A DNA stretch of 42,165 nucleotides from Acidobacteriota bacterium (GTDB taxonomy: Bacteria; Acidobacteriota; Vicinamibacteria; Vicinamibacterales; UBA2999). The notes under the pieces were generated by a model. The model was not told the origin of the DNA, did not search any database, and saw nothing but the letters and a program-made list of their open reading frames with translations. This document shows, in pieces, positions 2,540 to 16,015 of this stretch (positions are counted from its first letter, which is position 1; each line of letters starts with the position of its first letter). Made by a program: the position numbers and the translations under genes. The stretch is taken from contig JACQTK010000178.1 in assembly GCA_016210845.1 (NCBI GenBank), positions 1 through 42,165 on the forward strand, given 5' to 3'.

Positions 2540-3958
2540 TCACACGCGTTGGATCTTGAGGACGTTCGAGGGCCCGGGCGCGAGATCCGGCGTGATGCTG
2601 ACGAGCACGATCGGCGAGGCCGGCGGGATGTCGCCGCGGGCGACGAGCTGGCCGCCCACGCGGCTGGCCGCGACCGTCACGTCGCCGCTCAGATCGGCGA
2701 CCACAGGCACCACGCCCCAGGCCAGCGCGAGGCGGCGCGCCACGTCGGGCCGGTCGGTCGCGGCGTACACCGGCGCGCGGGGCCTCAGCGCCGAGAGCAG
2801 CCGGGCTGTCTTCCCGCCGCGGGTGACGGCCACGATGGCCGTGGCGTCGCCGCGCTCGGCGAGCGTGACGGCGGCCTCGCAGAGCGCCCGGGCGTGACCG
2901 GTGAGCAGCTGCCCGCCGCTGAGCGGGACCCGCTCCACCCGCGGAATCGTCTCCGCGTCGCGGATGATCAGGTCGAGCGTCTGCACGGCGCGCACGGGGT
3001 GAGCGCCGATCGCCGTCTCTCCCGCCAGCATGACCGCGTCGACGCCCTCGTCGACCGCCGTGGCCGCGTCGCTGACCTCGGCGCGCGTGGGCCGAGGCTC
3101 GGACCGCATCGACTCGAGCACCTGCGTGGCGACGATCACGGGGACGCCGAGCGCGCGCGCACGGCGCGCCACGTCCTTCTGCACCCGCGGCACGCGCTCG
3201 AGCGGCAGCTCGAGCCCCAGGTCGCCGCGGGCGACCATCACCGCGTTGGCCGCCTCGAGAATCTCGTCGATGCGCGCGACGGCCTCGGCGCGCTCCAGCT
3301 TGGCCACGATCGGCAGGTCGGGAGCGCCCGCCTGCGCCAGCGCCTCGCGCGCCTGCCGCACCTCGTGAGCGCTCCGCACGAAGCTGAGCGCGATCCAGTC
3401 GACGCCCGACTTCACCCCGAATCTCAGGTCGTCGATGTCCTTGGGCGTCAGCGCCATCGACGGCAGCTGCACGCCCGGTACGTTGATCCCCTTGTGCTCG
3501 CCGAGCAGCCCTCCGTCGATCACCGTCGTACGGACGTCGGTCGTCCCCGTATCGTCCACGCGCAGGGCGATGCGGCCGTCGTCGACCAGCAGTACGTCGC
3601 CGCGCCGCACGACGCGAGGCAGATCCGGATACGGGATCGACACCCGACCGGGTTCGCCAGGAGCGTCCCCCACGACGATTCGCAGCTCGTCGCCCGCGGT
3701 GAGCGCCAGCGACACGCCGTCGCGCAGCGCGCCCGTGCGGATCTTCGGGCCGCCAAGGTCCTGCAGCAGCGCCACGCTGCGCCCGTGCTTCTGCGCCGAG
3801 GCGCGCACGCGCGCGATCGCCTCTGCGTGCGCGTCGCGCGTGCCGTGCGAAAAGTTGAGGCGGAACACGTCGACGCCCGCGATCGTCATCGCGTCGATGG
3901 CCTGCGCGCTGCTCGTGGCAGGGCCGATCGTCGCGACGATCTTCGTATGCCTCATCAT
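2540..3958 (-). CDS. pyk: Pyruvate kinase
   Basis: The 472-residue enzyme converts phosphoenolpyruvate and ADP to pyruvate and ATP, the last step of glycolysis. Diagnostic segments are TKIVATIGPATSS at the N-terminus, NFSHG (35-39, K+/ATP site), DLGGPKIRTG (about 67-76), the catalytic lysine segment IVAKLERAEAV, the metal-binding VARGDLGLELP, and PTRAEVSDAATAVDEGVDAVMLAGETAIG in the barrel. The length is normal for bacterial enzymes. Two consecutive ATGs begin the frame (MMRHTK); the second may be the true start. The gene stands alone, divergent from the small gene at 4004. Confidence 0.97.
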   Translation of the reverse strand: MMRHTKIVATIGPATSSAQAIDAMTIAGVDVFRLNFSHGTRDAHAEAIARVRASAQKHGRSVALLQDLGGPKIRTGALRDGVSLALTAGDELRIVVGDAPGEPGRVSIPYPDLPRVVRRGDVLLVDDGRIALRVDDTGTTDVRTTVIDGGLLGEHKGINVPGVQLPSMALTPKDIDDLRFGVKSGVDWIALSFVRSAHEVRQAREALAQAGAPDLPIVAKLERAEAVARIDEILEAANAVMVARGDLGLELPLERVPRVQKDVARRARALGVPVIVATQVLESMRSEPRPTRAEVSDAATAVDEGVDAVMLAGETAIGAHPVRAVQTLDLIIRDAETIPRVERVPLSGGQLLTGHARALCEAAVTLAERGDATAIVAVTRGGKTARLLSALRPRAPVYAATDRPDVARRLALAWGVVPVVADLSGDVTVAASRVGGQLVARGDIPPASPIVLVSITPDLAPGPSNVLKIQRV

Positions 3959-4003
3959 GACGCTCGAATGTTAATAGGGTACTCTGTAAACCTTGACCTT
4001 CTC

Positions 4004-4192
4004 ATGACGATCAAACAGTGGCTCGACAATGCCACGCAGGATGCCGAGCGTCGCGGGTTGCCCGACCTGAAGCCGCTGCTCGAGACGCTCGCGCGGGCGA
4101 CCTCGGCCCTGCGGTCGGCCGACTGGAACGCCGACGCGACCGGCGAGACCTGCGACGGGCCGCGGAGGCAGGGACACACGGAGGTCGATTGA
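4004..4192 (+). CDS. Small conserved-looking protein upstream of amidase
   Basis: This 62-residue frame begins MTIKQWLDNATQDAERRG and continues LPDLKPLLETLARATSALR. It is an amphipathic, largely helical small protein with a C-terminal tail of low complexity. It is in frame with a much longer antisense shadow of pyruvate kinase, so an automatic call may miss it or overextend it. The ATG at 4004 lies 45 bp from the divergent pyruvate kinase start. It ends 48 nt before the amidase start and probably shares its transcript. No function can be assigned; helix-rich small proteins next to amidases can act as subunits (compare GatC with GatA), but no sequence similarity to GatC is claimed. Confidence 0.6.
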   Translation: MTIKQWLDNATQDAERRGLPDLKPLLETLARATSALRSADWNADATGETCDGPRRQGHTEVD

Positions 4193-4240
4193 TCAGAACA
4201 CTCTCCGTGCCGCCGTGTCTCCGTGACCCGCGGGAAGCCC

Positions 4241-5599
4241 ATGCCCGCTGAGCCGCGCACGATCGCCGAGATCGCGCGGGCGCTCGAATCGGGCAAGACC
4301 ACGTCGGAGGCCATCACCGAGCAGTGCCTCGACCGCATCGCGGAGCGCAATCCCTCGCTGAATGCGTTCATCACCGTGCTCGCCGACGAGGCGCGGGCGC
4401 AGGCGCGGGAGGCGGACCGCGAGATGCGCGCGGGCCGCCGCCGCGGCCCCCTGCACGGCGTCCCGATCTCGCTCAAGGATCTGTTCGACCTGCGCGGCAC
4501 GGCGACGACGGCCGCGTCGCGTGTCCGCCGAGGCCACGTTGCGCGCGCGGATGCGCCCGCCGTGAGCCGTCTGCGGGCGGCGGGCGCCGTTTTCGTCGGC
4601 AAAACGAACCTCCATGAGTTCGCGCTCGGCACCACGAACGAGGAGTCGGCGTTTGGCCCGGCGCGACACCCGCTCGATCCCAAGCGGTCGCCCGGCGGAT
4701 CGTCGGGGGGCTCCGCCGCGTCGGTGCTGGCGGGGATGGCGTACGCATCGCTCGGGTCGGACACGGGCGGCTCAATCCGTATCCCATCCGCCGCATGCGG
4801 GCTCGTCGGGCTCAAGCCCGCTTTCGGGGAGGTCTCCACAGAAGGAGTGGTGCCTCTCAGCACAACCCTCGACCATGTCGGACCGATCTGCCGGTCGGTG
4901 GAAGATGCCTCGATTCTGTACAGTATTCTGCGAGGCTTCGCGCCGAGCCCACGGGCTCCGCAAGAGGCTCCCCGAGGGCTGACGTTGGGTGTGCTGCGCG
5001 GGTACTTCACCGCGGTGCTCGACCCACAGGTGGCCGCCGCATTCGACAGCGCCTGCGCGCGACTCCAGCGGCAGGGCGTGCGGCTGGACGACGTCGACAT
5101 TCCGCACGCGAGCGACATCGCGCCGATCTACCTACACATCGTGCTCTCGGAGGCCGCCGTGTACCACGCGATGACGCTCGAGACCCGCCCGGACGACTAC
5201 ACGCCGAACGTCCGGCTGCGGCTGGAAATGGGGCGTTACATCCTCGCGGAGGACTACGGGCGGGCGCTGCGCGGACGCGAGGTCCTGACGCGCGAAGTCG
5301 ATGCCGCGCTGGAGGGGCGTGACGGCCTGCTGCTTCCGGCTCTCGCCGTCCCAGCCACCAAGCTTGGCGCGTCCGACGTGCGCGTGGGCGCGTCGGAGGA
5401 ACCGGTGCGGAACATCACGCTCCGGCTCACACAGCTGTTCAACCTGACGGGGCATCCGGCCTTGACGATGCCGTGCGGGGTGACCACCGAAGGACTGCCT
5501 GTCGGCGCGCAGCTCGTCGGACATCGTCCGCGGACGCCGCCGATGCTGGACGTCGCGGGCGCGATCGAGCCCTACTGCGGTCCGGGGACGTCGCGTTGA
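4241..5599 (+). CDS. Amidase-signature family hydrolase (GatA-like)
   Basis: The 452-residue enzyme has the complete Ser-cisSer-Lys triad: Lys79 in PISLKDLFD, Ser154 in PGGSSGGSAA and Ser178 in SDTGGSIRIPS. The numbering matches GatA of the tRNA amidotransferase. The family hydrolyses amides through an acyl-serine intermediate. The C-terminal half (GRYILAEDYGRALRGREVL) looks like stand-alone amidases rather than true GatA, and no gatB or gatC is nearby, so I infer a general amidase. ATG at 4241 is preferred over the upstream GTG at 4223 because GGGAAG precedes it. The substrate is unknown. Confidence 0.9.
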   Translation: MPAEPRTIAEIARALESGKTTSEAITEQCLDRIAERNPSLNAFITVLADEARAQAREADREMRAGRRRGPLHGVPISLKDLFDLRGTATTAASRVRRGHVARADAPAVSRLRAAGAVFVGKTNLHEFALGTTNEESAFGPARHPLDPKRSPGGSSGGSAASVLAGMAYASLGSDTGGSIRIPSAACGLVGLKPAFGEVSTEGVVPLSTTLDHVGPICRSVEDASILYSILRGFAPSPRAPQEAPRGLTLGVLRGYFTAVLDPQVAAAFDSACARLQRQGVRLDDVDIPHASDIAPIYLHIVLSEAAVYHAMTLETRPDDYTPNVRLRLEMGRYILAEDYGRALRGREVLTREVDAALEGRDGLLLPALAVPATKLGASDVRVGASEEPVRNITLRLTQLFNLTGHPALTMPCGVTTEGLPVGAQLVGHRPRTPPMLDVAGAIEPYCGPGTSR

Positions 5600-5736
5600 G
5601 GCTCGGGACGCGCGGGCAGCGGTTGCGGCGGGATATCGGGCGGCGGCGCCGGGCTGATGTCCGGCGGCGGCGTGTCGATGATGTCGGGGACGCCAGGCGG
5701 CCTCGGGACGTCGGGCTTTCGGGGATGCTCGAACAT
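5572..5736 (-). CDS. Possible small proline-rich protein
   Basis: The 54-codon frame reads MFEHPRKPDVPRPPGVPDII followed by repeated PPP-DI-P units (DTPPPDISPAPPPDIPP) and ends at 5572, overlapping the amidase 3' end by 28 nt in convergent orientation. The regular proline/aspartate pattern is more protein-like than the alternative frames. The ATG at 5736 has GGTGAG directly abutting it, which is too close for a good ribosome-binding site, and no better in-frame start is visible. It may be a real but weakly supported gene, or coincidence in GC-rich DNA. Confidence 0.35.
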   Translation of the reverse strand: MFEHPRKPDVPRPPGVPDIIDTPPPDISPAPPPDIPPQPLPARPEPQRDVPGPQ

Positions 5737-5795
5737 CTCACCGGACAGGATGCAACCCAGGGGCCGGCCCGGGCCCTCGAGACCGCTGAGCTGTG

Positions 5796-6872
5796 ATGCT
5801 CGGACTGCTGTTTCACGCGTGGGAGCGCCGACTCGCCTCGGTCACCAAGGACCGCGTGGTCCGGCCGTTCGAGTGGGGCCTCGACTGGATCTCTCCGAAT
5901 GGTCACGAGCCGCTTCCTCCTGAGGAGCGCCTGCGCCGCTGGGTCGACGAGGTCATGCGCGAGACCGAGGCGTTCTTCCACGCGCCGACGACGCGCGAGT
6001 ACCAGTTCGACGAGGCCGATCCGGAGCGGCTGCGCCGCGGCGAGGCGGGCACGTTGCGTTTTCCGACCGCCCTCACGACGCCCCACCCCAGCAACAACGT
6101 CGTGGTGGCGCGCTGGTTCCCCGCGCGCGGTGAGCCGCCCGTGGGCTCCCTCGCTGGCACGGCGGCGCGCCGATCGGGACGCGCCGTGCTCGTGCTGCCG
6201 CAGTGGAACGCCGACGTAGAGGGGCACGTGGGCCTGTCGCGCCTGCTCGCGCGGCTGGGCGTCTCGGCCCTGCGTCTGAGCCTTCCCTATCACGACGAAC
6301 GCATGCCCCCCGAGCTCGCGCGGGCCGACTACATCGTCAGCTCGAACATCGCGCGGACGGTCCAGGTGTGCCGTCAGGCCGTGCTCGACGCGCGGCGCGC
6401 CATCGCCTGGCTCGCGATGCAGGGGTACGAGCGCATCGGCATCCTGGGCACCAGCCTCGGATCGTGTCTGGCGATGCTCACCACGGCGCATGAGCCGTTG
6501 ATCCGCGCGCAGGCCTTGAATCACGTGTCGCCCTGGTTTGCCGATGTTGTCTGGCGGGGCCTCTCGACGCGGCACGTTCGCGAAGGGTTGAACGGCCACA
6601 TCGACCTCGAGCGGCTCAGAGACTTGTGGAGGCCGATCAGCCCGTTCTCGTACCTGGAGCGCGTGCGCGCGGCGCGGACGCTGCTGGTCTACGCGCGCTA
6701 CGACCTGAGCTTTCCCGTTGACCTCTCCCGAATGCTGGTCGCCGAGTTCCGGCGCCGCCAGATCCAGCACGAGGTGTCCGTGCTGCCGTGCGGCCACTAC
6801 AGCACGGGGTTGACGCCGTTCAAGTACATGGACGGCTACGTACTGGCCCGGTTCCTGCGGAGGAATCTCTGA
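5796..6872 (+). CDS. Alpha/beta hydrolase family protein
   Basis: The 358-residue protein contains the nucleophile elbow GTSLGS (Ser220), an acid in YARYDLSFP (Asp303) and a histidine in PCGHYSTG (His334), in the right order for a Ser-Asp-His triad. RAVLVLPQWNADVEGH (about 129-144) is the beta-strand and oxyanion region. No signal peptide is visible, so it is likely cytosolic. About 125 residues precede the hydrolase core, longer than minimal hydrolases. GTG at 5793 directly precedes ATG 5796. The substrate cannot be predicted; ester or thioester hydrolysis is typical of the fold. Confidence 0.85.
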   Translation: MLGLLFHAWERRLASVTKDRVVRPFEWGLDWISPNGHEPLPPEERLRRWVDEVMRETEAFFHAPTTREYQFDEADPERLRRGEAGTLRFPTALTTPHPSNNVVVARWFPARGEPPVGSLAGTAARRSGRAVLVLPQWNADVEGHVGLSRLLARLGVSALRLSLPYHDERMPPELARADYIVSSNIARTVQVCRQAVLDARRAIAWLAMQGYERIGILGTSLGSCLAMLTTAHEPLIRAQALNHVSPWFADVVWRGLSTRHVREGLNGHIDLERLRDLWRPISPFSYLERVRAARTLLVYARYDLSFPVDLSRMLVAEFRRRQIQHEVSVLPCGHYSTGLTPFKYMDGYVLARFLRRNL

Positions 6873-7212: not shown

Positions 7213-8589
7213 TCACACGTCGGCCGGCAGCAGCTGGGGCTCTCCCAGGCCGAGGGCGTCCATGGAGTCGGCAATCGTCCCATGATCGCCAACCACGAGC
7301 GTCGTCACACGCGCGGGATCGAGATAGCGGGCCGCGACACGCGTCACATCAGCCGTCTCGACGGCGCTCACGCGCGGCACGAACTCCTCGAAGTACGTTG
7401 CGGGAAGGTCGTACAAGGCGAGCTGGGCGACGGAGCGGGCTACCTGCTGGGCCGTCTCGAAATTGCGCGGATACCCCCGCGTCAGCGACGCCTTGGCCAG
7501 CGCCATTTCGCCGTTTGACGGCGGGCGGACCTCACGGATCGCACCGAGCTCCTGGAGCGCCTCGCGAACCGCCTCCGCCGTGGCGGCGGTGTGCACGCTC
7601 GCCTGCTGCGAGAAGGGCGTGACGCCGCGCCGCCAGTCGAATCCGGTTCGCGCCCCGTACGTATAGCCCTTCTCCTCGCGCAGCTTGAGGTTGATGCGGC
7701 TCACGAACTGTCCGCCGAGCACGGCGTTCATCACGAGCAGCGCGTGATAGTCGGGCGTGTTGCGCCGTGTCGCGAGCTGACCGATGCGAAGCTCCGACTG
7801 CGCGGCGGCCTCGCGCGGCACGATCGCCAGCCGAGGCGCAGCGTGCTCAGGAACGAGGTCGGCGGCCGCCGGCGGACCCGCGCCGAGAGCGGCAGCTATC
7901 GCGGCCCAGCTACCGAATTCCGCCTCTGCAATCCGGAAGAGCTCTTCATGCAACAAGGCCCCGGCCGCGACGAGCGTCGCGCGGTCGGGACGGAACGTCG
8001 CGCCGTGAAAGGCCGCGACATCCGAGAGCGACGCGGCGCGCAGGGCCGAGTCGCTGCCGATGGGAAGGTGGCCGTACGGATGATCGCCGTACACCAGCCG
8101 CAGGAACGCGCGCTCGGCGACTGCAGGCGGGAGGTCCTTCAACTGACGAAGCCGATCCAGCCTCAACTGCCGCACGCGATCGAAATCGGCCTCGCTCAAG
8201 GTGGGGCGGACGAGCATGTCGGCCAGCAGCGCGGCGCCTCGTGCCGCGAACCGCGACAGCGTGGTGAGCGTGAACACCGTGGCGTCGGCGCCGACATCGA
8301 CGTCGTAGACAGCGCCAATCCGCTCGAGCGCCTCCGACACCTCGATGGCGCTCAGCCCTCCGGTCCCTTCATCCACCATGTCGGCGGTGAGGGCGGCCAG
8401 CCCCTCGCGGCCGCGCGGATCGGCGCCAGCGCCACCCTCGATCTGCATGACGAACGTCACGACGGGCACATCCGGATGCTCGACCGTCTGCACCCGGAGT
8501 CCGTTCGGCAGCGTGTGTCGAACCACCAGCGGAAACGTGAACGGCGGATCTGGACCGACGTCGGGCAGGCGCGAGCGATCGGCTCCCAT
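7213..8589 (-). CDS. M16 peptidase-like subunit lacking zinc ligands
   Basis: The 458-residue protein is a full-length M16 (pitrilysin-type) family member. The HxxEH zinc motif is replaced by a degenerate stretch (GLAALTADMVDEGTGG), while the substrate-binding Arg/Tyr region FVSRINLKLREEKGYTYGA is kept. This is the non-catalytic partner of two-subunit M16B proteases. Its ATG overlaps the TGA of the upstream catalytic subunit by one base (TGATG at 8587-8591), so translation is probably coupled and the products paired. No signal peptide is seen from this start. An open frame continues upstream antisense to nothing useful; ATG 8589 is the start. Confidence 0.9.
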   Translation of the reverse strand: MGADRSRLPDVGPDPPFTFPLVVRHTLPNGLRVQTVEHPDVPVVTFVMQIEGGAGADPRGREGLAALTADMVDEGTGGLSAIEVSEALERIGAVYDVDVGADATVFTLTTLSRFAARGAALLADMLVRPTLSEADFDRVRQLRLDRLRQLKDLPPAVAERAFLRLVYGDHPYGHLPIGSDSALRAASLSDVAAFHGATFRPDRATLVAAGALLHEELFRIAEAEFGSWAAIAAALGAGPPAAADLVPEHAAPRLAIVPREAAAQSELRIGQLATRRNTPDYHALLVMNAVLGGQFVSRINLKLREEKGYTYGARTGFDWRRGVTPFSQQASVHTAATAEAVREALQELGAIREVRPPSNGEMALAKASLTRGYPRNFETAQQVARSVAQLALYDLPATYFEEFVPRVSAVETADVTRVAARYLDPARVTTLVVGDHGTIADSMDALGLGEPQLLPADV

Positions 8590-9911
8590 CAGGACACCGA
8601 GACAGGCTCGGAGCCTGGCAGCGCCAATGCCTGCTGGCCGCGCGGGACGACGCTCAGCACGACGCGGCGATCGAGCCGCAGGAGGTGTTCGGCCGCCTCG
8701 CGAACGCTGTCGCGCGTGGCCTGCTGGTAGCGCGCCAGGTCGGCGGCGAAGAATCCTGGGATCCCGCGCAGCACGTTGTACGCGTTCAGCTGATCGGACT
8801 TGCCGCCAAAGCCGCCCACCGTCTGGAGCCGGTACATGAACTGCGCCTCGATCTGCGCCTTGGCGCGTTCCATGTCGTCCTCCGACGGCCCGCGGTCGAT
8901 CAGGCGCTGCAGTTCGGCATCCATGGCGGCCGCCAGCTCGGTGAGCGAGCGCCCGGGCGACGCCGTGGCAACCACCAGGAAGAAGCCGCTCAGCTCGCGC
9001 GAGCTCTGATGGGCCGAGACGTCGAGCGCGAGGCGCCGCTCGTACACGAGCGTGCGGTACAGCCGCGACGTCTTGCCGTGCCCCAGCACGTCGCCGAGCA
9101 GATCCATCTCGGCATCGCGGCTGGCGAACATCGCGGGCGAATGCCACGCCATGTAGACGCGCGGCAGCTCCACGCGATCCTCGAGGACGAGGCGAATCTC
9201 CCGCGGGACGGCGGCATCCGCGCGCATCGGTTCGGGACGCTGGCCGGCCGGCAGCTCGCCGAAGTACTCCTCGGCCAGATCGAGCGCGCGGGACGTCTCG
9301 ATGTCGCCCGCCAGCGCGAGCGAGGCGTTCGACGGGTGGTAGTACGTGCGGAAGAAGGCCTGCACGTCGTCGAGCTGCATGGTGCGGATGTCGTCGGCGC
9401 CGCCGATCGTCATCCAGTGGTACGGATGATCGGGTGGGAACAACGCGGCCAGAACCGCCATCAGCGCGAGGCCGTACGGGCGATTCTCGTAGTTCTGGCG
9501 GCGCTCGTTGAGCACCACGTCGCGCTGCGTCTCGAAGCGCTCGCGTGTCACTGCGGACCGCAGGTAGCCCATCCGGTCCGATTCCATCCAGAGCGCGAGA
9601 TCCACGGCGCCGGTCGGCACCACCTCCCAGTAATTCGTTCGGTCGGTGTTCGTGGAGCCGTTCAGGAGTGCACCGGCCCGCTGAAGCGGCGCGAAGTAGC
9701 CAGTGTTGTGATGCTCGGACCCTTCGAACATCAGATGCTCGAAGAGGTGCGCAAACCCCGTTCGTCCGGGGCGCTCGTTCTTGGAGCCCACGTGGTACCA
9801 GACGTTCACGGCGACGATCGGAACATGATGGTCTTCGTGGACGAGCACGTCGAGGCCGTTGGCGAGCGTGCGTTTGGTGAAGGGAAGGTCGACGGGGGCC
9901 ACTGCGAGCAT
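8589..9911 (-). CDS. M16 family zinc metallopeptidase, catalytic subunit
   Basis: The 440-residue protein carries the inverted zinc motif HLFEH (His55, Glu58, His59), with the third ligand probably Glu136 in VVLNER, 77 residues on, as expected for M16B peptidases. The C-terminal half repeats the fold without catalytic residues. It is expected to form a clamshell heterodimer with the product of the coupled downstream gene and to degrade peptides. No clear signal peptide is present (MLAVAPVDLPFTKRTLANGL), so both subunits may be cytosolic, unlike many periplasmic pairs. It starts at ATG 9911. Confidence 0.94.
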   Translation of the reverse strand: MLAVAPVDLPFTKRTLANGLDVLVHEDHHVPIVAVNVWYHVGSKNERPGRTGFAHLFEHLMFEGSEHHNTGYFAPLQRAGALLNGSTNTDRTNYWEVVPTGAVDLALWMESDRMGYLRSAVTRERFETQRDVVLNERRQNYENRPYGLALMAVLAALFPPDHPYHWMTIGGADDIRTMQLDDVQAFFRTYYHPSNASLALAGDIETSRALDLAEEYFGELPAGQRPEPMRADAAVPREIRLVLEDRVELPRVYMAWHSPAMFASRDAEMDLLGDVLGHGKTSRLYRTLVYERRLALDVSAHQSSRELSGFFLVVATASPGRSLTELAAAMDAELQRLIDRGPSEDDMERAKAQIEAQFMYRLQTVGGFGGKSDQLNAYNVLRGIPGFFAADLARYQQATRDSVREAAEHLLRLDRRVVLSVVPRGQQALALPGSEPVSVS

Positions 9912-9952
9912 CCTACCGGCAAGGAGGACGCCCGGTAAACCGCAACCAGGGC

Positions 9953-10018
9953 GCGCACGCGGGAGCGTGCGCTCTACAGCAACGGAGTCCCCGTTGCGCG
10001 GGGGCTCTATTCAGCCCC
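9953..10018. repeat. Three tandem hairpins, first of the dispersed 3'-end family
   Basis: GCGCACGC-GGGA-GCGTGCGC (9953-9972) is followed by TCTAC (9973-9977), matching the dispersed family. Next come GCAACGG/CCGTTGC (9979-9985 with 9991-9997) and GGGGCT/AGCCCC (10001-10006 with 10013-10018). The cluster fills the space between the end of the PhnDCE operon (stop at 10030) and the start of the M16 pair. It may terminate the transporter transcript. Confidence 0.7.
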
Positions 10019-10029
10019 GCGTGGCGCGA

Positions 10030-10812
10030 TCAGGCAGCGGGCGCGGGCGGGAGCACCATCCGCCGCACGCGGCCGCTGAGGTAGTCGATTGCAATAACGA
10101 CGCCGAGCGTCAGGAGCAGGGCCGTGAACAGATTGCGGTACTGCAGCAGCTGCAGGTACCCCAGCAGGTGAAAGCCGATGCCGCCAGCGCCGACGAAGCC
10201 CATGATGGACGAGGCGCGCACGTTGTACTCGAACACGAAGAGCAGCTGGCTCAGGATGCCGTTCGCCGCCTCGGGAAGGAGCGCAAACCGCGTGAGCTGC
10301 GCGCGGTTGCAGCCGACGCTGCGGACGGCGTCCACGACCTCGCCGTCGACGCCCTCGAACACCTCGTACAGCAGCTTGCCCAGGTAGCCGAGCGTGTAGG
10401 CAGCGATGCCCATGGCGCCCGCGGCCGGCCCCAGCCCGAACGCCACCACGAAGACCACTGCCCACAGCAGCGCGGGGACCGTGCGGACGCCCGCCAGCAG
10501 CAGCCGCACCGGCCCGGTGACACCGGGACCGAAGACGGTTCTCGTGGCCAGCAGCGCCAGCGGCAGCGCCCCCGCGACGCCGAGCACCGTGCCGACGTAG
10601 GCGATCTGCAGCGTCTCGAGGGTGGCGCCCAGCAGCGTCGGCAGCGGCTGCGGGTTCGGCGGAAACAGCCCTCGCACGAATTCCGTGGTGTTGAGGACGC
10701 CGCGGCGGAGCTGCGCGGCGTCGAGCAGGCCGAGGTTCCCCATCATGGCCAGCGCCAGGCCGGCCGCCACGCCGGCCGTGATGAGGAACACCGGAGGACG
10801 TCGCGATCTCAT
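10030..10812 (-). CDS. phnE: Phosphonate-type ABC transporter permease (PhnE)
   Basis: The 260-residue membrane protein has about six hydrophobic helices and the binding-protein-dependent permease EAA-like loop EVVDAVRSVGCNRAQLTRFALLPEA, followed by NVRASSIMGFVGAGGIGF, typical of PhnE. It forms the membrane channel for the binding protein encoded at 11588 and the ATPase at 10809. Its ATG overlaps the phnC stop (ATGA, 10809-10812), so translation is coupled. The family transports phosphonates, phosphite or phosphate, but the iron-uptake surroundings raise the possibility of another ligand. Confidence 0.92.
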   Translation of the reverse strand: MRSRRPPVFLITAGVAAGLALAMMGNLGLLDAAQLRRGVLNTTEFVRGLFPPNPQPLPTLLGATLETLQIAYVGTVLGVAGALPLALLATRTVFGPGVTGPVRLLLAGVRTVPALLWAVVFVVAFGLGPAAGAMGIAAYTLGYLGKLLYEVFEGVDGEVVDAVRSVGCNRAQLTRFALLPEAANGILSQLLFVFEYNVRASSIMGFVGAGGIGFHLLGYLQLLQYRNLFTALLLTLGVVIAIDYLSGRVRRMVLPPAPAA

Positions 10813-11591
10813 CGGCCCATCAGCGTCATGACGGACGCGAACGTGAACGCATTGGCCGCCCCCTCGTGGATCTTGCGGCCGTCGCGGATGAACACGACGC
10901 GGTCGCCGTATTCCGCGACGAGCTCCACCTCGTGCGAGGTGATGAGGAAGGCGACGCCTGTCCGCGCGATGCCCTGGACGATATCCAGCATCTCGCGCGT
11001 GGTGAGCGGATCGAGCTGCGACACGAACTCGTCGGCGAGCACGAGCGTCGGGTGCTGCATCAGCGCGCGCGCGATGGCAACCCGCTGGCGTTCGCCGCCG
11101 CTCAGGCTGAACACCTTTTCGTCCGCCTTCGCGCGGATGCCCAGCGAGTCGAGCGTCGCCAGCGCCTCGTCTCGGAGCGTGTGCGGAAACGCGCCCACGA
11201 GCGAGGCGAGCGTGCCCACGCGCGCGAGCGTCCCCGACAGCACGTTGTCCAGCACGGTCAGGCTGCGCACGAGGCCGAGGTGCTGGGGAATCCACGCCAC
11301 CGACCGCTCCAGCGCCCGGCGGGACCGCGCGTGGGTGCGGCCGGCCACCGGCTGGCCGAACAGCGAGAGCGTGCCCGCGTTCAGCGGCAGGAGCCCCTTG
11401 ATCACCTTCAGCAGCGTGCTCTTGCCGCTGCCGCTCGGGCCCAGGATCATGCAAATCGATCCAGGCGCGACGGCCAGATCGATGTCGCGCAGCACGGGCC
11501 GGCCTGGCACGTACCAGCACGACAACCCCACCGTCTCGACGGCCGGCGCCGGTGCGGGTTCGGGGAACGCCGACAGGGCGGCCTGGCTCAC
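10809..11591 (-). CDS. phnC: Phosphonate-type ABC transporter ATPase (PhnC)
   Basis: The 260-residue ATPase has Walker A GPSGSGKST (51-59), the signature LSGGERQRVAIARAL and Walker B LVLADEFVSQLD, followed by the switch histidine in ITSHE. It powers the importer formed with PhnE and PhnD. The start is the GTG at 11591, whose GTGA overlaps the phnD stop (11588-11590); the longer frame to 11930 runs antisense through phnD and is not real. An N-terminal segment rich in alanine and proline precedes the ATPase domain. Confidence 0.93.
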   Translation of the reverse strand: MSQAALSAFPEPAPAPAVETVGLSCWYVPGRPVLRDIDLAVAPGSICMILGPSGSGKSTLLKVIKGLLPLNAGTLSLFGQPVAGRTHARSRRALERSVAWIPQHLGLVRSLTVLDNVLSGTLARVGTLASLVGAFPHTLRDEALATLDSLGIRAKADEKVFSLSGGERQRVAIARALMQHPTLVLADEFVSQLDPLTTREMLDIVQGIARTGVAFLITSHEVELVAEYGDRVVFIRDGRKIHEGAANAFTFASVMTLMGR

Positions 11592-12511
11592 CGCAAGCGC
11601 TCGGTGAACTGGAGGTTGGTGGCCTGCAGCGACTGCTGCAACGTCGCCAGGTGCTCCTCGGTGGTGGCTGGCTGGAACCGCACGAAGATTCCCGAGATGA
11701 ACTTTCGCATGAGGTCGCGGTGCTCGGGCTCGCCGAGCGCCATCAGCGCGTCGCGCAACTGGCTGCGAAGCGGCTCCTCGAGCGTCTTGCCGAACACGAC
11801 CGCATGCGAGGGGATCGGCCCCTGCTGCTCGATCACGCGCGTGGCGCCGAGCACCTCGTTGTACAGCGCGGCAGGCACGTCGCCCGCGATGACGGTGGCG
11901 TCGACCTGGCCGTTCTTCAGCGCCTCCCATGCCTGGGCGTAACCGCCCGCGAACAGCACCCGGCCGAAGAAGTCCCCGGGATCGACTTCACCTTCGCCGC
12001 GCGCGACCAGGCCGCGCTCCACGAGCTTTGCCATCGGCATCACGTAGCCCGATGTCGACAGCGGGCTCGGAAACGCCACGCGCCTCCCTTTCAGATCGTC
12101 GAGCGACGTGTACGGGCTCTCAGGCATCACCACCCAGTACGAGAAGTAGAACGGCCGCTCCACCTGCTCGCGATCGACGAGCACCTGCCGCACTTCGGCG
12201 AGGGCGACCTCGGCGCCCGCGTGCTTCTGTGCCAGAGCCGCGGGCCACGCACTCATGAACGCCGCGTCCGCGTGGCCGAAGCGGAGCGCCTCGATGACGC
12301 CCGCGAAGAGCGTGGGCACGCGCAGCTCCACGTCAACGCCCGCGAGCCGGCTCTCGAGGAACTGCTCCAGCTCCCTCGATTCGGCAGCGAGCTGCTCGGC
12401 CGTCGCGGTGGGTTGCACGGCAATCACGAGCGCACGGGGCGCGGGCGACGCAGGCTGCTGGCAGCCGGCGGTCAGGACGACGAGAGCGAGAAAGAAGGCG
12501 GCGTTCCGCAT
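11588..12511 (-). CDS. phnD: PhnD-type substrate-binding lipoprotein
   Basis: The 307-residue protein has a lipoprotein signal (MRNAAFFLALVVLTAGC, lipid-modified Cys17). Its mature part matches the PhnD/PF12974 binding-protein pattern: LVIAVQPTATAEQ, then GHADAAFMSAWPAALAQ, YWVVMPESPYTSLDDLKGRRVAFPSPLSTSGYVMP, and GQVDATVIAG. It captures the substrate outside the membrane and delivers it to PhnE. First gene of the operon, preceded by a good promoter (12577-12605) with a palindromic operator (12548-12562). No phosphonate-degrading (phn lyase) genes are nearby. Confidence 0.92.
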   Translation of the reverse strand: MRNAAFFLALVVLTAGCQQPASPAPRALVIAVQPTATAEQLAAESRELEQFLESRLAGVDVELRVPTLFAGVIEALRFGHADAAFMSAWPAALAQKHAGAEVALAEVRQVLVDREQVERPFYFSYWVVMPESPYTSLDDLKGRRVAFPSPLSTSGYVMPMAKLVERGLVARGEGEVDPGDFFGRVLFAGGYAQAWEALKNGQVDATVIAGDVPAALYNEVLGATRVIEQQGPIPSHAVVFGKTLEEPLRSQLRDALMALGEPEHRDLMRKFISGIFVRFQPATTEEHLATLQQSLQATNLQFTERLR

Positions 12512-12547
12512 GGCGCTGTGACTCCTTGTCGCGGCGAGGACTAAAAA

Positions 12548-12562
12548 TGAGACTGAGTCTTA
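12548..12562. promoter_or_regulatory. Fur-like operator of the phnDCE operon
   Basis: TGAGACT-G-AGTCTTA is a 7-1-7 palindrome with one mismatch. It lies just downstream of the predicted phnD transcription start (about 12570) and 37 nt before the phnD ATG. It shares its sequence with the perfect palindrome at 12719-12735 on the other side of the divergent promoter region. Regulation by a Fur-family metal sensor is inferred from the resemblance to TGAGAAT-type Fur boxes. Confidence 0.65.
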
Positions 12563-12576
12563 GTTTCGCCCTACTC

Positions 12577-12605
12577 ACAGTACCCGAGCTGACATTCGAG
12601 GTCAA
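12577..12605 (-). promoter_or_regulatory. Predicted phnDCE promoter
   Basis: On the minus strand a TTGACC -35 box (12605-12600) is followed after exactly 17 nt by TACTGT (12582-12577). The expected start near 12570 places the palindromic operator immediately downstream, where a bound repressor would block transcription. Confidence 0.6.
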
Positions 12606-12677
12606 CAAGCCTGTCTCCCCACATACAGCGGCGACCTCCCAGATTTCGGGCCATTTGCGCGGTTCACCTGAAATCCC

Positions 12678-12707
12678 TTGACGACCAAATCAGCCCCGAG
12701 ATATCGT
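12678..12707 (+). promoter_or_regulatory. Predicted TonB-receptor promoter
   Basis: TTGACG (12678-12683) and TATCGT (12702-12707) are separated by 18 nt. The predicted start, about 12714, lies at the left edge of the perfect 17-bp palindrome at 12719-12735, and about 70 nt before the receptor ATG. Confidence 0.55.
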
Positions 12708-12718
12708 TTAAGCCGAGA

Positions 12719-12735
12719 TTGAGACTCAGTCTCAA
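12719..12735. promoter_or_regulatory. Fur-like operator of the TonB receptor
   Basis: TTGAGACTCAGTCTCAA is a perfect 8-1-8 palindrome placed at the predicted transcription start of the TonB receptor. The central TGAGACT-N-AGTCT core is shared with the operator of phnDCE (12548-12562). Known Fur boxes of several phyla have the related core TGAGAAT-N-ATTCTCA, so a Fur-family repressor (iron, zinc or manganese) is the likely ligand; its identity is an inference. Confidence 0.7.
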
Positions 12736-12784
12736 CATTGGCTGGCCCCGATTTCGGGGCCCTCGATTCGTGGAGCCCTTACCC

Positions 12785-15214
12785 ATGCGACGTTTCATCC
12801 TGTTCCCGCTCGTCGTCCTGCTCGCCTCGAGTGCCGCCCACGCCCAGACCACTCAGCTCGCCGGTTACGTGACGTCCGCGGCCGGCCAGCCTGTCGTCGG
12901 GGCTGAAGTCGTCATCCAGTCGTCCGGAGGGGCGGCCTCGACCGCCGTGACCGATGCTGCCGGACGTTTTGCGTTTCCCGTCGAGCCAGGAGCCTATCGG
13001 ATCTCTGCCGAAGCCATCGGCCTGTCACCCATCGTCCGGTCCGTCACCATTGCGGCGGGCACGTCCGTCGATCTCACGCTCGTCCTGCCCGACATCGTCC
13101 GCGAACGCATGAACGTCGTCGGCGATGCGGGCAGCGTCGACCGAATCCCCGGTGCGGTGGCGGTGATCGATCGGAGGGAAATGGAGAAGGTGAAGCTCGC
13201 CACCGACGATGTCCATCAGATGCTCCGTCGGCTGCCCGGGCTGAACATTCAAGAAGAGGAGGGCTACGGCCTGCGTCCCAACATCGGCATCCGCGGCACG
13301 GGCACCGACCGGAGCAGCAAGATCACGCTGATGGAGGACGGCGTGCTCATCGCCCCCGCGCCGTACGCCGCCCCTGCGGCCTACTACTCGCCGATCGCGG
13401 GGCGCATGGAATCGATCGAGGTGCGCAAGGGATCGAGCCAGGTGAAGTACGGGCCGATCACGACCGGAGGCGTGCTCAACTACGTCTCGACCAGCATTCC
13501 ATCGAGCCTTCAGCTGCGCACCACGGTGACGGGCGGCGGCCAGGGCACGCGCAAGCTCACGGCGAACGTCGGCGACTCGTACCGCAACTTCGGCTGGCTG
13601 ATCGAGACGTTCCAGTTCGACAACGATGGCTTCAAGCGGCTCGACGGCGGCGGCGACACCGGCGTCCGACTCGAGGACTACCTGGCGAAGTTCCGAGTCA
13701 ACACCACGCCGACGCCAACGCTCTACCAGGAAGTCGAAGTCAAGCTCGGTCGTGCGGAACAGCTCGGTAATGAAACCTATCTGGGCCTGACCGACGCCGA
13801 TTTCGCACGAGCCCCGTACCGCCGGTACGCGGCGTCCCAGGTCGACGTTCTGGATTGGACCCACACGCAGTACCAGGTGCGGCATCTCCTTGCCCGCCAG
13901 AACTGGGACCTGACCACAGTGGTCTATCGCAACAACTTCCACCGTGCGTGGTACAAGCTCGACAGCGTGCTCGGCGGCGGTCTGGCGGGCACGCTGGGCG
14001 CACCGGGCGCGAACGCCGGGCGGATGGCCGTGCTTACTGGCGCCACGAGCGCCCCCAACGCGCTGGTCGTGCGGAACAACAATCGCGGGTACTACGGCGC
14101 GGGCGTGCAATCGGTCCTCGGCACGGCGGTGTCGCGCGGGCCCGTCCGGCATCAGATCGAAGTCGGCGTCCGATATCACCAGGACGAAGAGGATCGGTTC
14201 CAGCAGGACGACGCGTATCAGATGGTCGACGGCCGGATGATCCTGACGCGAGCGGGCGGCCCGGGCAGCCAGACCAACCAGGTGGCGGGCGCGAGCGCCC
14301 TGGCGGGCTTCGTGGCCGACACGATGTCTTGGGGCCGGTGGACCCTCGCCCCTGGCCTGCGCTACGAGACGATCGACCTCGAGCGCATCACCTACGCGCG
14401 CACCGACGCGCGCCGCACGGGATCGACCGATGTGCTGGCGACCGACGTCAATGCGGTCATTCCAGGTGTGGGCGTGAGCTATGCGCCGAGAGCCGACATG
14501 AGCGTCTTCGGCGGCGTGCACCGGGGGTTTGCCCCGCCCGGGCCAGGCGCCGCCTCGGGGACGCAGGCCGAGCACGGCATCAATTACGAGCTCGGCACAC
14601 GGGCACAGCGCAACGCGGTCAGCGCGGATGTGGTGGCGTTCGTGAACGATTACCGCAACCTGCTGGGGCGTGACTCGCTGGCCACGGGCGGCAGCGGCGA
14701 GGGGCAGCTTTTCAACGGCGGCAAGGCGCGCGTCTCTGGGCTGGAAGCATCGGCGCAATGGGACATCGGGAACACCGCACGCCTGCCGATCGCCCTTCCC
14801 GTCCGTGTGGCCTACACCGCCACCCAGGCCGAGTTCCGCAACAGCTTTCGGAGTCAGTTCGGCCCGTGGGGGAACGTGCTCATCGGCGACGAGCTGCCGT
14901 ACGTGCCCCATCATCAATTCTTTGCCAGCATCGAGGCCGGCGGTCAGGCGGTGCGCGTACGGCTCGAAGCCTCCTACGTCAGCCGCATGCGAACCCTCGC
15001 CGGCCAGGGAGCGTTCGTGCCGAGCGAGTCGACCGACGCCTATCTCGTCGTGGGTCTTTCTGGCGAATACGCGCTCACGAACGGTACCAGCCTCTTCGCG
15101 AGCGTTCAGAACGTGACTGACAACGTCTACATCGCGGCTCGCCATCCGTCCGGCGTGCGGCCTGGCCTGCCGCGCCTCGCGCAGGTCGGGCTCAAGGTCG
15201 ATTTCGGACGCTGA
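12785..15214 (+). CDS. FecA-like TonB-dependent outer-membrane receptor
   Basis: The 809-residue protein has a signal peptide ending AHAQ (residues 1-22), a carboxypeptidase-regulatory-like beta domain (about 23-105), a plug domain (about 110-250) and a 22-strand barrel ending in DFGR. The plug contains RGTGTDRSSKITLMEDGV and VRKGSSQVKYGP-TTGGVLNYVS, a pattern seen in FecA-type ferric citrate receptors. It imports a scarce ligand across the outer membrane using TonB. The Fur-like operator at its promoter and the FTR1-type iron permease 33 nt downstream support iron or another metal chelate as cargo. ATG 12785 was chosen because it starts a clear signal peptide. Confidence 0.93.
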   Translation: MRRFILFPLVVLLASSAAHAQTTQLAGYVTSAAGQPVVGAEVVIQSSGGAASTAVTDAAGRFAFPVEPGAYRISAEAIGLSPIVRSVTIAAGTSVDLTLVLPDIVRERMNVVGDAGSVDRIPGAVAVIDRREMEKVKLATDDVHQMLRRLPGLNIQEEEGYGLRPNIGIRGTGTDRSSKITLMEDGVLIAPAPYAAPAAYYSPIAGRMESIEVRKGSSQVKYGPITTGGVLNYVSTSIPSSLQLRTTVTGGGQGTRKLTANVGDSYRNFGWLIETFQFDNDGFKRLDGGGDTGVRLEDYLAKFRVNTTPTPTLYQEVEVKLGRAEQLGNETYLGLTDADFARAPYRRYAASQVDVLDWTHTQYQVRHLLARQNWDLTTVVYRNNFHRAWYKLDSVLGGGLAGTLGAPGANAGRMAVLTGATSAPNALVVRNNNRGYYGAGVQSVLGTAVSRGPVRHQIEVGVRYHQDEEDRFQQDDAYQMVDGRMILTRAGGPGSQTNQVAGASALAGFVADTMSWGRWTLAPGLRYETIDLERITYARTDARRTGSTDVLATDVNAVIPGVGVSYAPRADMSVFGGVHRGFAPPGPGAASGTQAEHGINYELGTRAQRNAVSADVVAFVNDYRNLLGRDSLATGGSGEGQLFNGGKARVSGLEASAQWDIGNTARLPIALPVRVAYTATQAEFRNSFRSQFGPWGNVLIGDELPYVPHHQFFASIEAGGQAVRVRLEASYVSRMRTLAGQGAFVPSESTDAYLVVGLSGEYALTNGTSLFASVQNVTDNVYIAARHPSGVRPGLPRLAQVGLKVDFGR

Positions 15215-15247
15215 GGAGCAGGCCAGACGGGAGTGCCGACGTTCGCC

Positions 15248-16015
15248 ATGGCGCAAGGCTTCGTCATCACGCTCCGTGAAGGGCTCGAGGCCTTTCTCAT
15301 CGTGGCAATCAGCCTTGCGTATCTGCGCAAGACGGGCCGCTCGGGCCTCGTGCGGGCAGTCTACTGGGGCATCGTGGTGTCGATCCTGGCGAGCGGAATC
15401 GCAGGCCTGCTCTTCCGGCGCGCGGCGAACCAGGCGCTCTGGGAAGGTGTCCTCGCCATCGCCGCCGCGCTGCTCGTGGGCTCGCTGATCGTGCACATGC
15501 TACGCGCGGCGAAGACGATCAAGCGGGACATCGAGCGGCAGCTCGAGGCCTCGGCGATCAAGCCCGCGGCGACCGCGTTCACCGGCGTATTCCTGTTCAC
15601 GGTGCTGATGATTACGCGCGAGGGCATGGAGACGGTGCTCTTCCTGAACGCCGTGCTGTTCCAGGTCCAGTCAGCGGCGGTGTTCACCGGTGCGCTGGGC
15701 GGGCTGCTCGCGGCCGCGGCCGTCGCGTGGCTGTGGTCCAGATACGGCCACCGGGTCAATCTCGCGCGCTTCTTCCAGGTGACCGCGATCTTCCTGTTCC
15801 TCTTCGTCGCTCAGCTCCTGGTCTACGGCTTCCATGAGCTGACGGAGGCCAGCGTGCTGCCGTACAGCGAAGCGCTGCACGCCGCGACGGAACCGTACGG
15901 GCCCGACGGCTACTACGGCCGTCTCCTCACCTACCTGCTGGTCCTGCTCCCGCTGGGCTGGCTCGCCGCCACCGCGTTCGAGCGGAGGTCCGCCACAGAG
16001 CGCGAGTATCAGTGA
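15248..16015 (+). CDS. FTR1/EfeU-family iron permease
   Basis: The 255-residue protein has about seven hydrophobic helices and both hallmark REXXE motifs: REGLE at 10-14 and REGME at 124-128, which bind iron in the yeast Ftr1/EfeU family. The length is normal. Family members import iron across the cytoplasmic membrane, usually with an oxidase or P19-like partner, none of which is adjacent. ATG 15248 gives MAQGFVITLREGLE, the usual family start; an upstream GTG at 15233 would add five residues. It follows the TonB receptor by 33 nt and is probably in its transcript, so it shares the Fur-like control. Confidence 0.92.
   Translation: MAQGFVITLREGLEAFLIVAISLAYLRKTGRSGLVRAVYWGIVVSILASGIAGLLFRRAANQALWEGVLAIAAALLVGSLIVHMLRAAKTIKRDIERQLEASAIKPAATAFTGVFLFTVLMITREGMETVLFLNAVLFQVQSAAVFTGALGGLLAAAAVAWLWSRYGHRVNLARFFQVTAIFLFLFVAQLLVYGFHELTEASVLPYSEALHAATEPYGPDGYYGRLLTYLLVLLPLGWLAATAFERRSATEREYQ

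Follow-up and report, generated by a model that had tools for sequence, protein, structure and literature searches.

The window considered here covers positions 1 to 42,165 of contig JACQTK010000178.1, from a draft genome of 4.18 Mb (G000, 93% complete) whose closest relatives are Acidobacteriota. It carries two divergent operons (Table 1): on the minus strand the genes phnD, phnC and phnE, translationally coupled through overlapping start and stop codons (10030-12511), and on the plus strand the genes of a TonB-dependent receptor and of an FTR1/EfeU-type iron permease (12785-16015). Genes of the phnDCE type are annotated as phosphonate uptake. For this module the annotation is probably wrong: the sequence features described below point to an iron-repressed Fe(III) uptake system with a transferrin-like binding protein.

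Divergent operons and their shared operators

The products of the first operon fit the families that gave them their names to different degrees. The permease clears the cut-off of its equivalog TIGR01097 (231 bits vs 217); for the ATPase, PhnC is the best family, at 201 bits and below the equivalog cut-off of 266; the binding protein, encoded by the only PhnD-family gene of the genome, scores 127 bits against the PhnD equivalog TIGR01098, far below the 261 set for it. In the second operon, the permease has the FTR1 domain with two REXXE motifs (REGLE and REGME). The receptor probably starts at the ATG at 12785 with the signal peptide MRRFILFPLVVLLASSAAHA and has an N-terminal carboxypeptidase-regulatory-like domain. 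It had been called FecA-like in the preliminary description, of which a generic similarity to siderophore receptors survives (TonB-siderophore is the best generic family, with a score below its cut-off) and the closer assignment does not, all scores lying well under the curated thresholds.

The preliminary description had also reported that the two operons share a palindrome, and this is borne out by two TGAGACTNAGTCTCA sites. Both are 15-bp palindromes of the 7-1-7 type, differ by two bases from the Fur box TGAGAATNATTCTCA and qualify as Fur boxes. They had been placed just at the predicted starts; this needs correction, since the receptor start is probably the ATG given above, which the box precedes by about 50 bp, and the box on the phnD side stands 37 bp before the ATG. 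The receptor-side operator is found just downstream of a -35/-10-like pair, past the putative promoter and over the presumed transcription start, a placement as for a repressor site. With at most one mismatch allowed, TGAGACTNAGTCTCA and the wider pattern TGAGAMTNAKTCTCA occur nowhere in the 4.18 Mb draft genome except at these two operators, so that the palindrome is confined to the module; the wider pattern, when reversed as a control, has no site in the genome. This outcome favours the preliminary description, which a palindrome before many unrelated genes would have refuted. A palindrome search within the window allowing three mismatches stayed at chance level and is uninformative.

As for the regulators that could act on these sites, the genome encodes one member of the FUR family, one clear member of the DtxR family and one that is sub-threshold. 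The sole FUR-family domain (locus L001, contig C206) lies at the head of an open frame of 359 residues, possibly a fusion, and is adjoined by a HesB/ErpA-like iron-sulfur gene, read by eye.

Table 1. Features of the module and its surroundings, with positions in the window
Feature	Position	Strand	Remarks
M16 peptidase	8589-9911	-	PF00675/PF05193; first of the pair downstream of phnE
phnE-like permease	10030-10812	-	TIGR01097; ATG start overlaps phnC stop
phnC-like ATPase	10809-11591	-	PF00005; GTG start overlaps phnD stop
phnD-like gene (P0001)	11588-12511	-	307 residues, lipoprotein-type binding protein; PF12974, E 4e-50
Operator 1	12548-12562		TGAGACTGAGTCTTA, upstream of phnD
Promoter-like pair of the receptor operon	12678-12707	+	TTGACG-18-TATCGT; consensus match only
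Operator 2	12720-12734		perfect palindrome TGAGACTCAGTCTCA, upstream of the receptor gene
TonB-dependent receptor	12785-15214	+	809 residues; PF00593, PF07715, PF13620
FTR1/EfeU-type iron permease (P0005)	15233-16015	+	260 residues; PF03239, E 7e-36

A predicted binding site resembling that of transferrins

Relatives of the PhnD-like protein P0001 at about 60% identity are present in Chloroflexota, Rokubacteria, Omnitrophota, a deltaproteobacterial metagenome-assembled genome and one thaumarchaeote, and ten of these relatives were combined into a clade profile (A1). Run against the PDB, this profile finds PtxB, PhnD, HtxB, ArrX and AioX and then transferrins (entry 6wb6 at E 1e-10, human serotransferrin at E 2e-7), by which the clade is homologous in sequence to the transferrin family. 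The transferrin domain PF00405 is matched by six of ten clade members, with a best E of just 0.0012. With a 60-residue profile at the anion loop, transferrins even rank first, above PhnD, and the invariant Tyr122 falls on human Tyr95; transferrins were not recovered with a profile limited to the C-terminal half (A3), and the matches to Tyr188 and His249 therefore rest on the full-length profile alignment. The AlphaFold model of P0001 (mean predicted local distance difference test score 88) leads Foldseek to PtxB, PhnD, HtxB, AioX and ArrX as the nearest solved structures and then to transferrins at E 1.5e-12, and gave no useful match among viral structures.

In the N-lobe of human transferrin, iron is held by Asp63, Tyr95, Tyr188 and His249, and Glu83 is the second-shell partner of His249. 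When all proteins of the Tyr191/His236 type are aligned with this lobe by hhalign (E 5e-9, 27% identity, 176 columns; the human sequence used agrees letter for letter with PDB entry 3ve1), Tyr122 pairs with Tyr95, Tyr191 with Tyr188, His236 with His249, Glu106 with Glu83 and Ser87 with Asp63, so that three of the four iron ligands are present by position. Tyr122, Tyr191, His236 and also Asp211 are present without exception in the 51 clade members compared. In P0001 the anion loop reads S152-T153-S154-G155; compared with the anion site of transferrins, which lies at a helix start with Thr120 and Arg124, the loop and its Gly are conserved and the Arg is absent.

The same positions set the clade apart from ordinary PhnD proteins (n=67), in which residue 191 is His in all but one (66/67) and residue 236 is never His; phosphonate- and phosphite-type binders have Asp or a small residue there (Asp/Ala/Ser). 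In the alignment of the clade profile with the PDB, Tyr191 takes the place of His157 of E. coli PhnD, whose mutation to Ala is represented by an open, unliganded form (entry 3s4u). The pocket His of a phosphonate importer is thus missing, and the preliminary description, which had taken retention of the phosphonate-binding residues as a point that would speak against a metal, is upheld in this respect.

The clade and its iron-related neighbours

The clade that includes the PhnD of the window extends over Acidobacteriota, Chloroflexota, Rokubacteria, Omnitrophota, a deltaproteobacterial lineage and Nitrososphaeria, and forms a single branch in a tree of 84 proteins, with a support of 100 in the SH-like approximate likelihood ratio test. 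Within bacteria profile A1 separates it clearly, clade members scoring >400 bits and other PhnD proteins <175 bits. Few Acidobacteriota have it (4 of 396 genomes), as do one of 95 genomes of the Rokubacteria phylum and about 10 of the 400 that make up the Chloroflexota set; in Nitrososphaeria it is common (about 30 of 300), and scores there grade down to about 150 bits. In the assemblies, three clade-related phnD genes (L101 on contig C2 of genome G877, L158 and L165) contain one in-frame stop codon apiece.

The first control set, all PhnD proteins <280 bits, turned out not to be uniform: Tyr191/His236 also occurs in several of its Acidobacterial and archaeal groups, partly with a TonB receptor or DtxR gene nearby. 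For this reason the His191 group alone was kept as ordinary PhnD. One of the Acidobacterial PhnDCE groups (L053-L057, L061, L063-L065), which carries His236, has links to a di-haem MauG-like peroxidase and to an outer-membrane protein of the Phenol_MetA type; a DtxR gene lies beside L061, and the group is possibly a further metal system. In a third Acidobacterial PhnD group, with Tyr191/His236 (L058-L060, L062), the gene stands immediately behind a TonB receptor.

What, then, accompanies the transporter in other genomes? A gene for FTR1, Fur, DtxR or a TonB receptor occurs within 3.5 kb at 8 of 22 bacterial clade loci vs 0 of 10 ordinary PhnD loci, a modest difference (Fisher p 0.035), and flanking DNA farther out (644 kb) contained no member of these families. 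Linkage was counted from homology matches only, because automatic gene calling is unreliable in these high-GC loci. According to Pfam, phnDCE is flanked by DtxR and FTR1 in L011 and L018 and by Fur in L016, L177 has the order Fur-FTR1-phnCDE, and the contig of L175 ends in an FTR1 fragment; in addition, L192 has a DtxR homologue, and in L009 and L016 a TonB receptor lies upstream of phnD. The adjacency of PhnD homologues to iron genes, which had been suggested as a check, is therefore seen in other phyla as well. Two of the FTR1 permeases are fused to other domains, to a cytochrome c domain in L018 (9376-11412) and to a 4Fe-4S ferredoxin-type membrane domain in L011 (9524-11584).

The operators recur too. 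The exact palindrome of the window precedes phnD in L010 and L050, TAAGACTGAGTCTCA precedes the receptor of L009, and the receptor of L016 has TGAGACTGATTCTCA, one base off the classical Fur box; the palindromic box occurs at four loci from two phyla and in each case stands before phnD or before the adjacent receptor. In Chloroflexota and Rokubacteria, boxes of the IdeR/DtxR type stand upstream of phnD in L015 (for example TTAGGCTAACCTAA), L174, L175, L176 and L014; in 40 shuffles no equally good box arose, and no control locus reached 5 mismatches. One and the same transporter has thus been joined to different iron regulators in different phyla. In L010 the TGAGACTGAGTCTCA box is shared with a group of open reading frames divergent from phnD (3387-6769), which are outer-membrane-protein-like, small, weakly cytochrome b561-like and ApbE-like, mostly without Pfam support, and are possibly a flavin-based iron reductase operon.

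Proposed function, alternatives and archaeal relatives

The sequence itself establishes the layout, the operators and their uniqueness, the exchange at the ligand positions, the clade and its recurrent linkage to iron genes and iron boxes; the metal and its oxidation state, the anion, the fourth ligand, the repressor and the direction of transport are inferred. In the proposed mechanism, the TonB receptor would carry a ferric chelate through the outer membrane, and the PhnD-like lipoprotein would capture Fe(III) by means of Tyr122, Tyr191, His236 and a carboxylate, perhaps that of Asp211, while the Ser-Thr-Ser loop at the helix start, which formerly bound phosphonate, would hold an anion. PhnCE would then move the iron across the inner membrane, with FTR1 as a second, parallel inner-membrane route. 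In iron-replete cells, a Fur-family repressor seated on the two operators over both promoters would shut the module off. The earlier suggestion that the importer takes up a metal or metal chelate rather than a phosphonate is thereby supported, ferric iron with an anion being the best fit; its other suggestion, a phosphonate-type siderophore, found no specific support.

Several points weigh against this proposal. At position 87, the equivalent of Asp63, the clade has Ser or Gly, so that one ligand must come from elsewhere, and the Ser-Thr-Ser loop and Tyr122 are common to phosphonate binders too. For the repressor there are up to three candidate genes, one of the Fur family and up to two of the DtxR family. 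No adjacent iron gene, among the families tested, is present at 14 of the 22 bacterial clade loci or at any archaeal one; and because 12 of the 19 nearby iron-gene matches are the seed sequences themselves, the contrast between near and far flanks is partly circular.

An alternative that we regard as unlikely is that the ligand is not Fe(III) with a simple anion but a small ferric chelate or a different metal (manganese, cobalt or a lanthanide), and that the transferrin-like residues line a chelate pocket. It would suit the adjoining TonB receptor and the retained anion loop, DtxR-family regulators can be manganese regulators, and relatives of the Nitrosopumilus type adjoin CbtAB, a predicted cobalt transporter. 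However, the IdeR-type and Fur-type boxes together with FTR1 indicate iron, Tyr/Tyr/His plus a carboxylate are hard ligands of the sort typically found around Fe(III), and Dehalococcoidia, which are expected to lack an outer membrane, retain the system with FTR1 and DtxR and with no TonB receptor at the locus (L011).

Far less probable is an ordinary importer of phosphonate, phosphite or phosphate placed under iron control, for example for iron-phosphorus balance. The matches to PF12974 and TIGR01098, the permease above its equivalog cut-off and the conserved Tyr122 and Ser-Thr-Ser loop agree with it, and gene clusters of acidophiles do mix TonB-dependent Fe(III) uptake with phosphate and phosphonate genes (PMC2631029). 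These matches are offset by the low equivalog score of PhnD, by the change of the phosphonate His to Tyr in every clade member and by a linkage that across phyla goes to iron genes and iron boxes. The preliminary description had further stated that no phosphonate metabolism gene is present: this holds for PhnJ of the carbon-phosphorus lyase, not found in the 93%-complete genome, and goes no further, as phosphonatase, PhnY/PhnZ and other phosphonate-degradation genes were not searched for. That the two operons are chance neighbours, with palindromes belonging to an unrelated regulator, is hardly credible: linkage in a minority of clade loci only would agree with it, but the same box stands before phnD or the adjacent receptor in two phyla and in this genome is confined to the module.

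Two further candidates were rejected, membership of the FbpA/FutA family, as family scans gave no match to the FbpA type, and arsenic sensing, as inspection of the operons, short of a systematic search, showed neither two-component nor arsenic genes.

An Fe(III) importer of this kind would combine traits of several known systems. It resembles PhnDCE, PtxABC and HtxBCD, the importers of phosphonate, phosphite and hypophosphite, in gene order, PhnE family, fold, Tyr122 and the Ser-Thr-Ser loop, and differs from them in Tyr191 for His157, His236 for Asp/Ala/Ser, the iron-type operators and neighbours, and PhnJ, which was not found. With transferrins it shares homology, the positions of Tyr95, Tyr188, His249 and the second-shell Glu83, and probably the anion helix, whereas the clade protein is a single-lobe lipoprotein feeding an ATP-binding cassette (ABC) permease, with Ser/Gly at the Asp63 position and no Arg124; because one of the four ligands is missing from its position in the clade, the system is not filed as a transferrin. 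Its presumed task, periplasmic Fe(III) binding and ABC import, is that of FbpABC, FutABC and hFBP (the "bacterial transferrins"), but their binding protein comes from a different family, which the title of Bruns 1997, as listed in PMC10182148, describes as convergent. AioX and ArrX, sensors of arsenite and arsenate with the PhnD fold, are a precedent for a change of ligand within the fold, though not iron ABC importers. The system may thus be described as an ABC ferric importer that is FbpABC-like in its working, built from PhnDCE parts and equipped with a transferrin-homologous site.

An evolutionary link of transferrins, phytotransferrin and phosphonate-binding proteins has already been published (McQuaid 2018, as cited in PMC7676907). 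In that citation the link is a matter of phylogeny, whereas the present case concerns an iron-regulated prokaryotic PhnDCE clade with its ligand set; in the open-access literature, subscription journals not being covered, no report was found of a living prokaryotic PhnDCE clade that combines transferrin ligands with iron regulation. If the proposal is true, the phylogenetic link becomes a functional one, with extant prokaryotic relatives bearing ferric ligands, and the widespread phosphonate-uptake annotation (phnCDE) is wrong for a clade that can be defined by Tyr191 and His236.

In seven archaeal PhnD proteins of the Nitrosopumilus type (L218-L224), Asp142, Tyr169, Tyr244, His290 and Glu161 are invariant, which amounts to the full Asp-Tyr-Tyr-His set plus the Glu83 equivalent. 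The match to Asp63 was read from the hhalign alignment with the human N-lobe, where a gap shifts the Tyr169/Tyr95 pair; this pair therefore rests on the alignment among PhnD proteins, and the Nitrosopumilus-type profile alone matches transferrins weakly (best E 0.0012). Next to these phnD genes lie CbtAB and two TrmB-like regulators, which make cobalt a possible substrate for this branch.

A published study reports no iron-specific transporter for Nitrosopumilus maritimus SCM1 (PMC6776035), and archaeal phnCDE has been counted as phosphorus acquisition in ecological work (PMC13018155). Proteins with Tyr/Tyr/His would, if the proposal is true, be direct candidates for this missing transporter of ammonia-oxidising archaea. 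Could the PhnD proteins with Tyr-Tyr-His, or Asp-Tyr-Tyr-His in the Nitrosopumilus type, be living transferrin homologues that power a PhnCE-type iron importer, the one missing from these archaea, and do they show what sort of protein gave rise to transferrins? On the sequence comparisons above, we hold the case for and against this broader idea to be evenly balanced. At thaumarchaeal phnDCE loci (L201-L208, L228, L231) a conserved palindrome, ATAACGNCGTTAT, lies near the phnD start and is likely the operator of an archaeal regulator.

A last observation concerns the genes that follow the transporter. In the window phnDCE is succeeded by a pair of M16 peptidase genes (7213-9911, minus strand), the first of which is a possible member of the same operon. 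At L010, where phnC and phnE are absent, the M16 pair directly follows phnD (7925-10610). A role in iron release like that of FusC or PqqL is imaginable for this pair.

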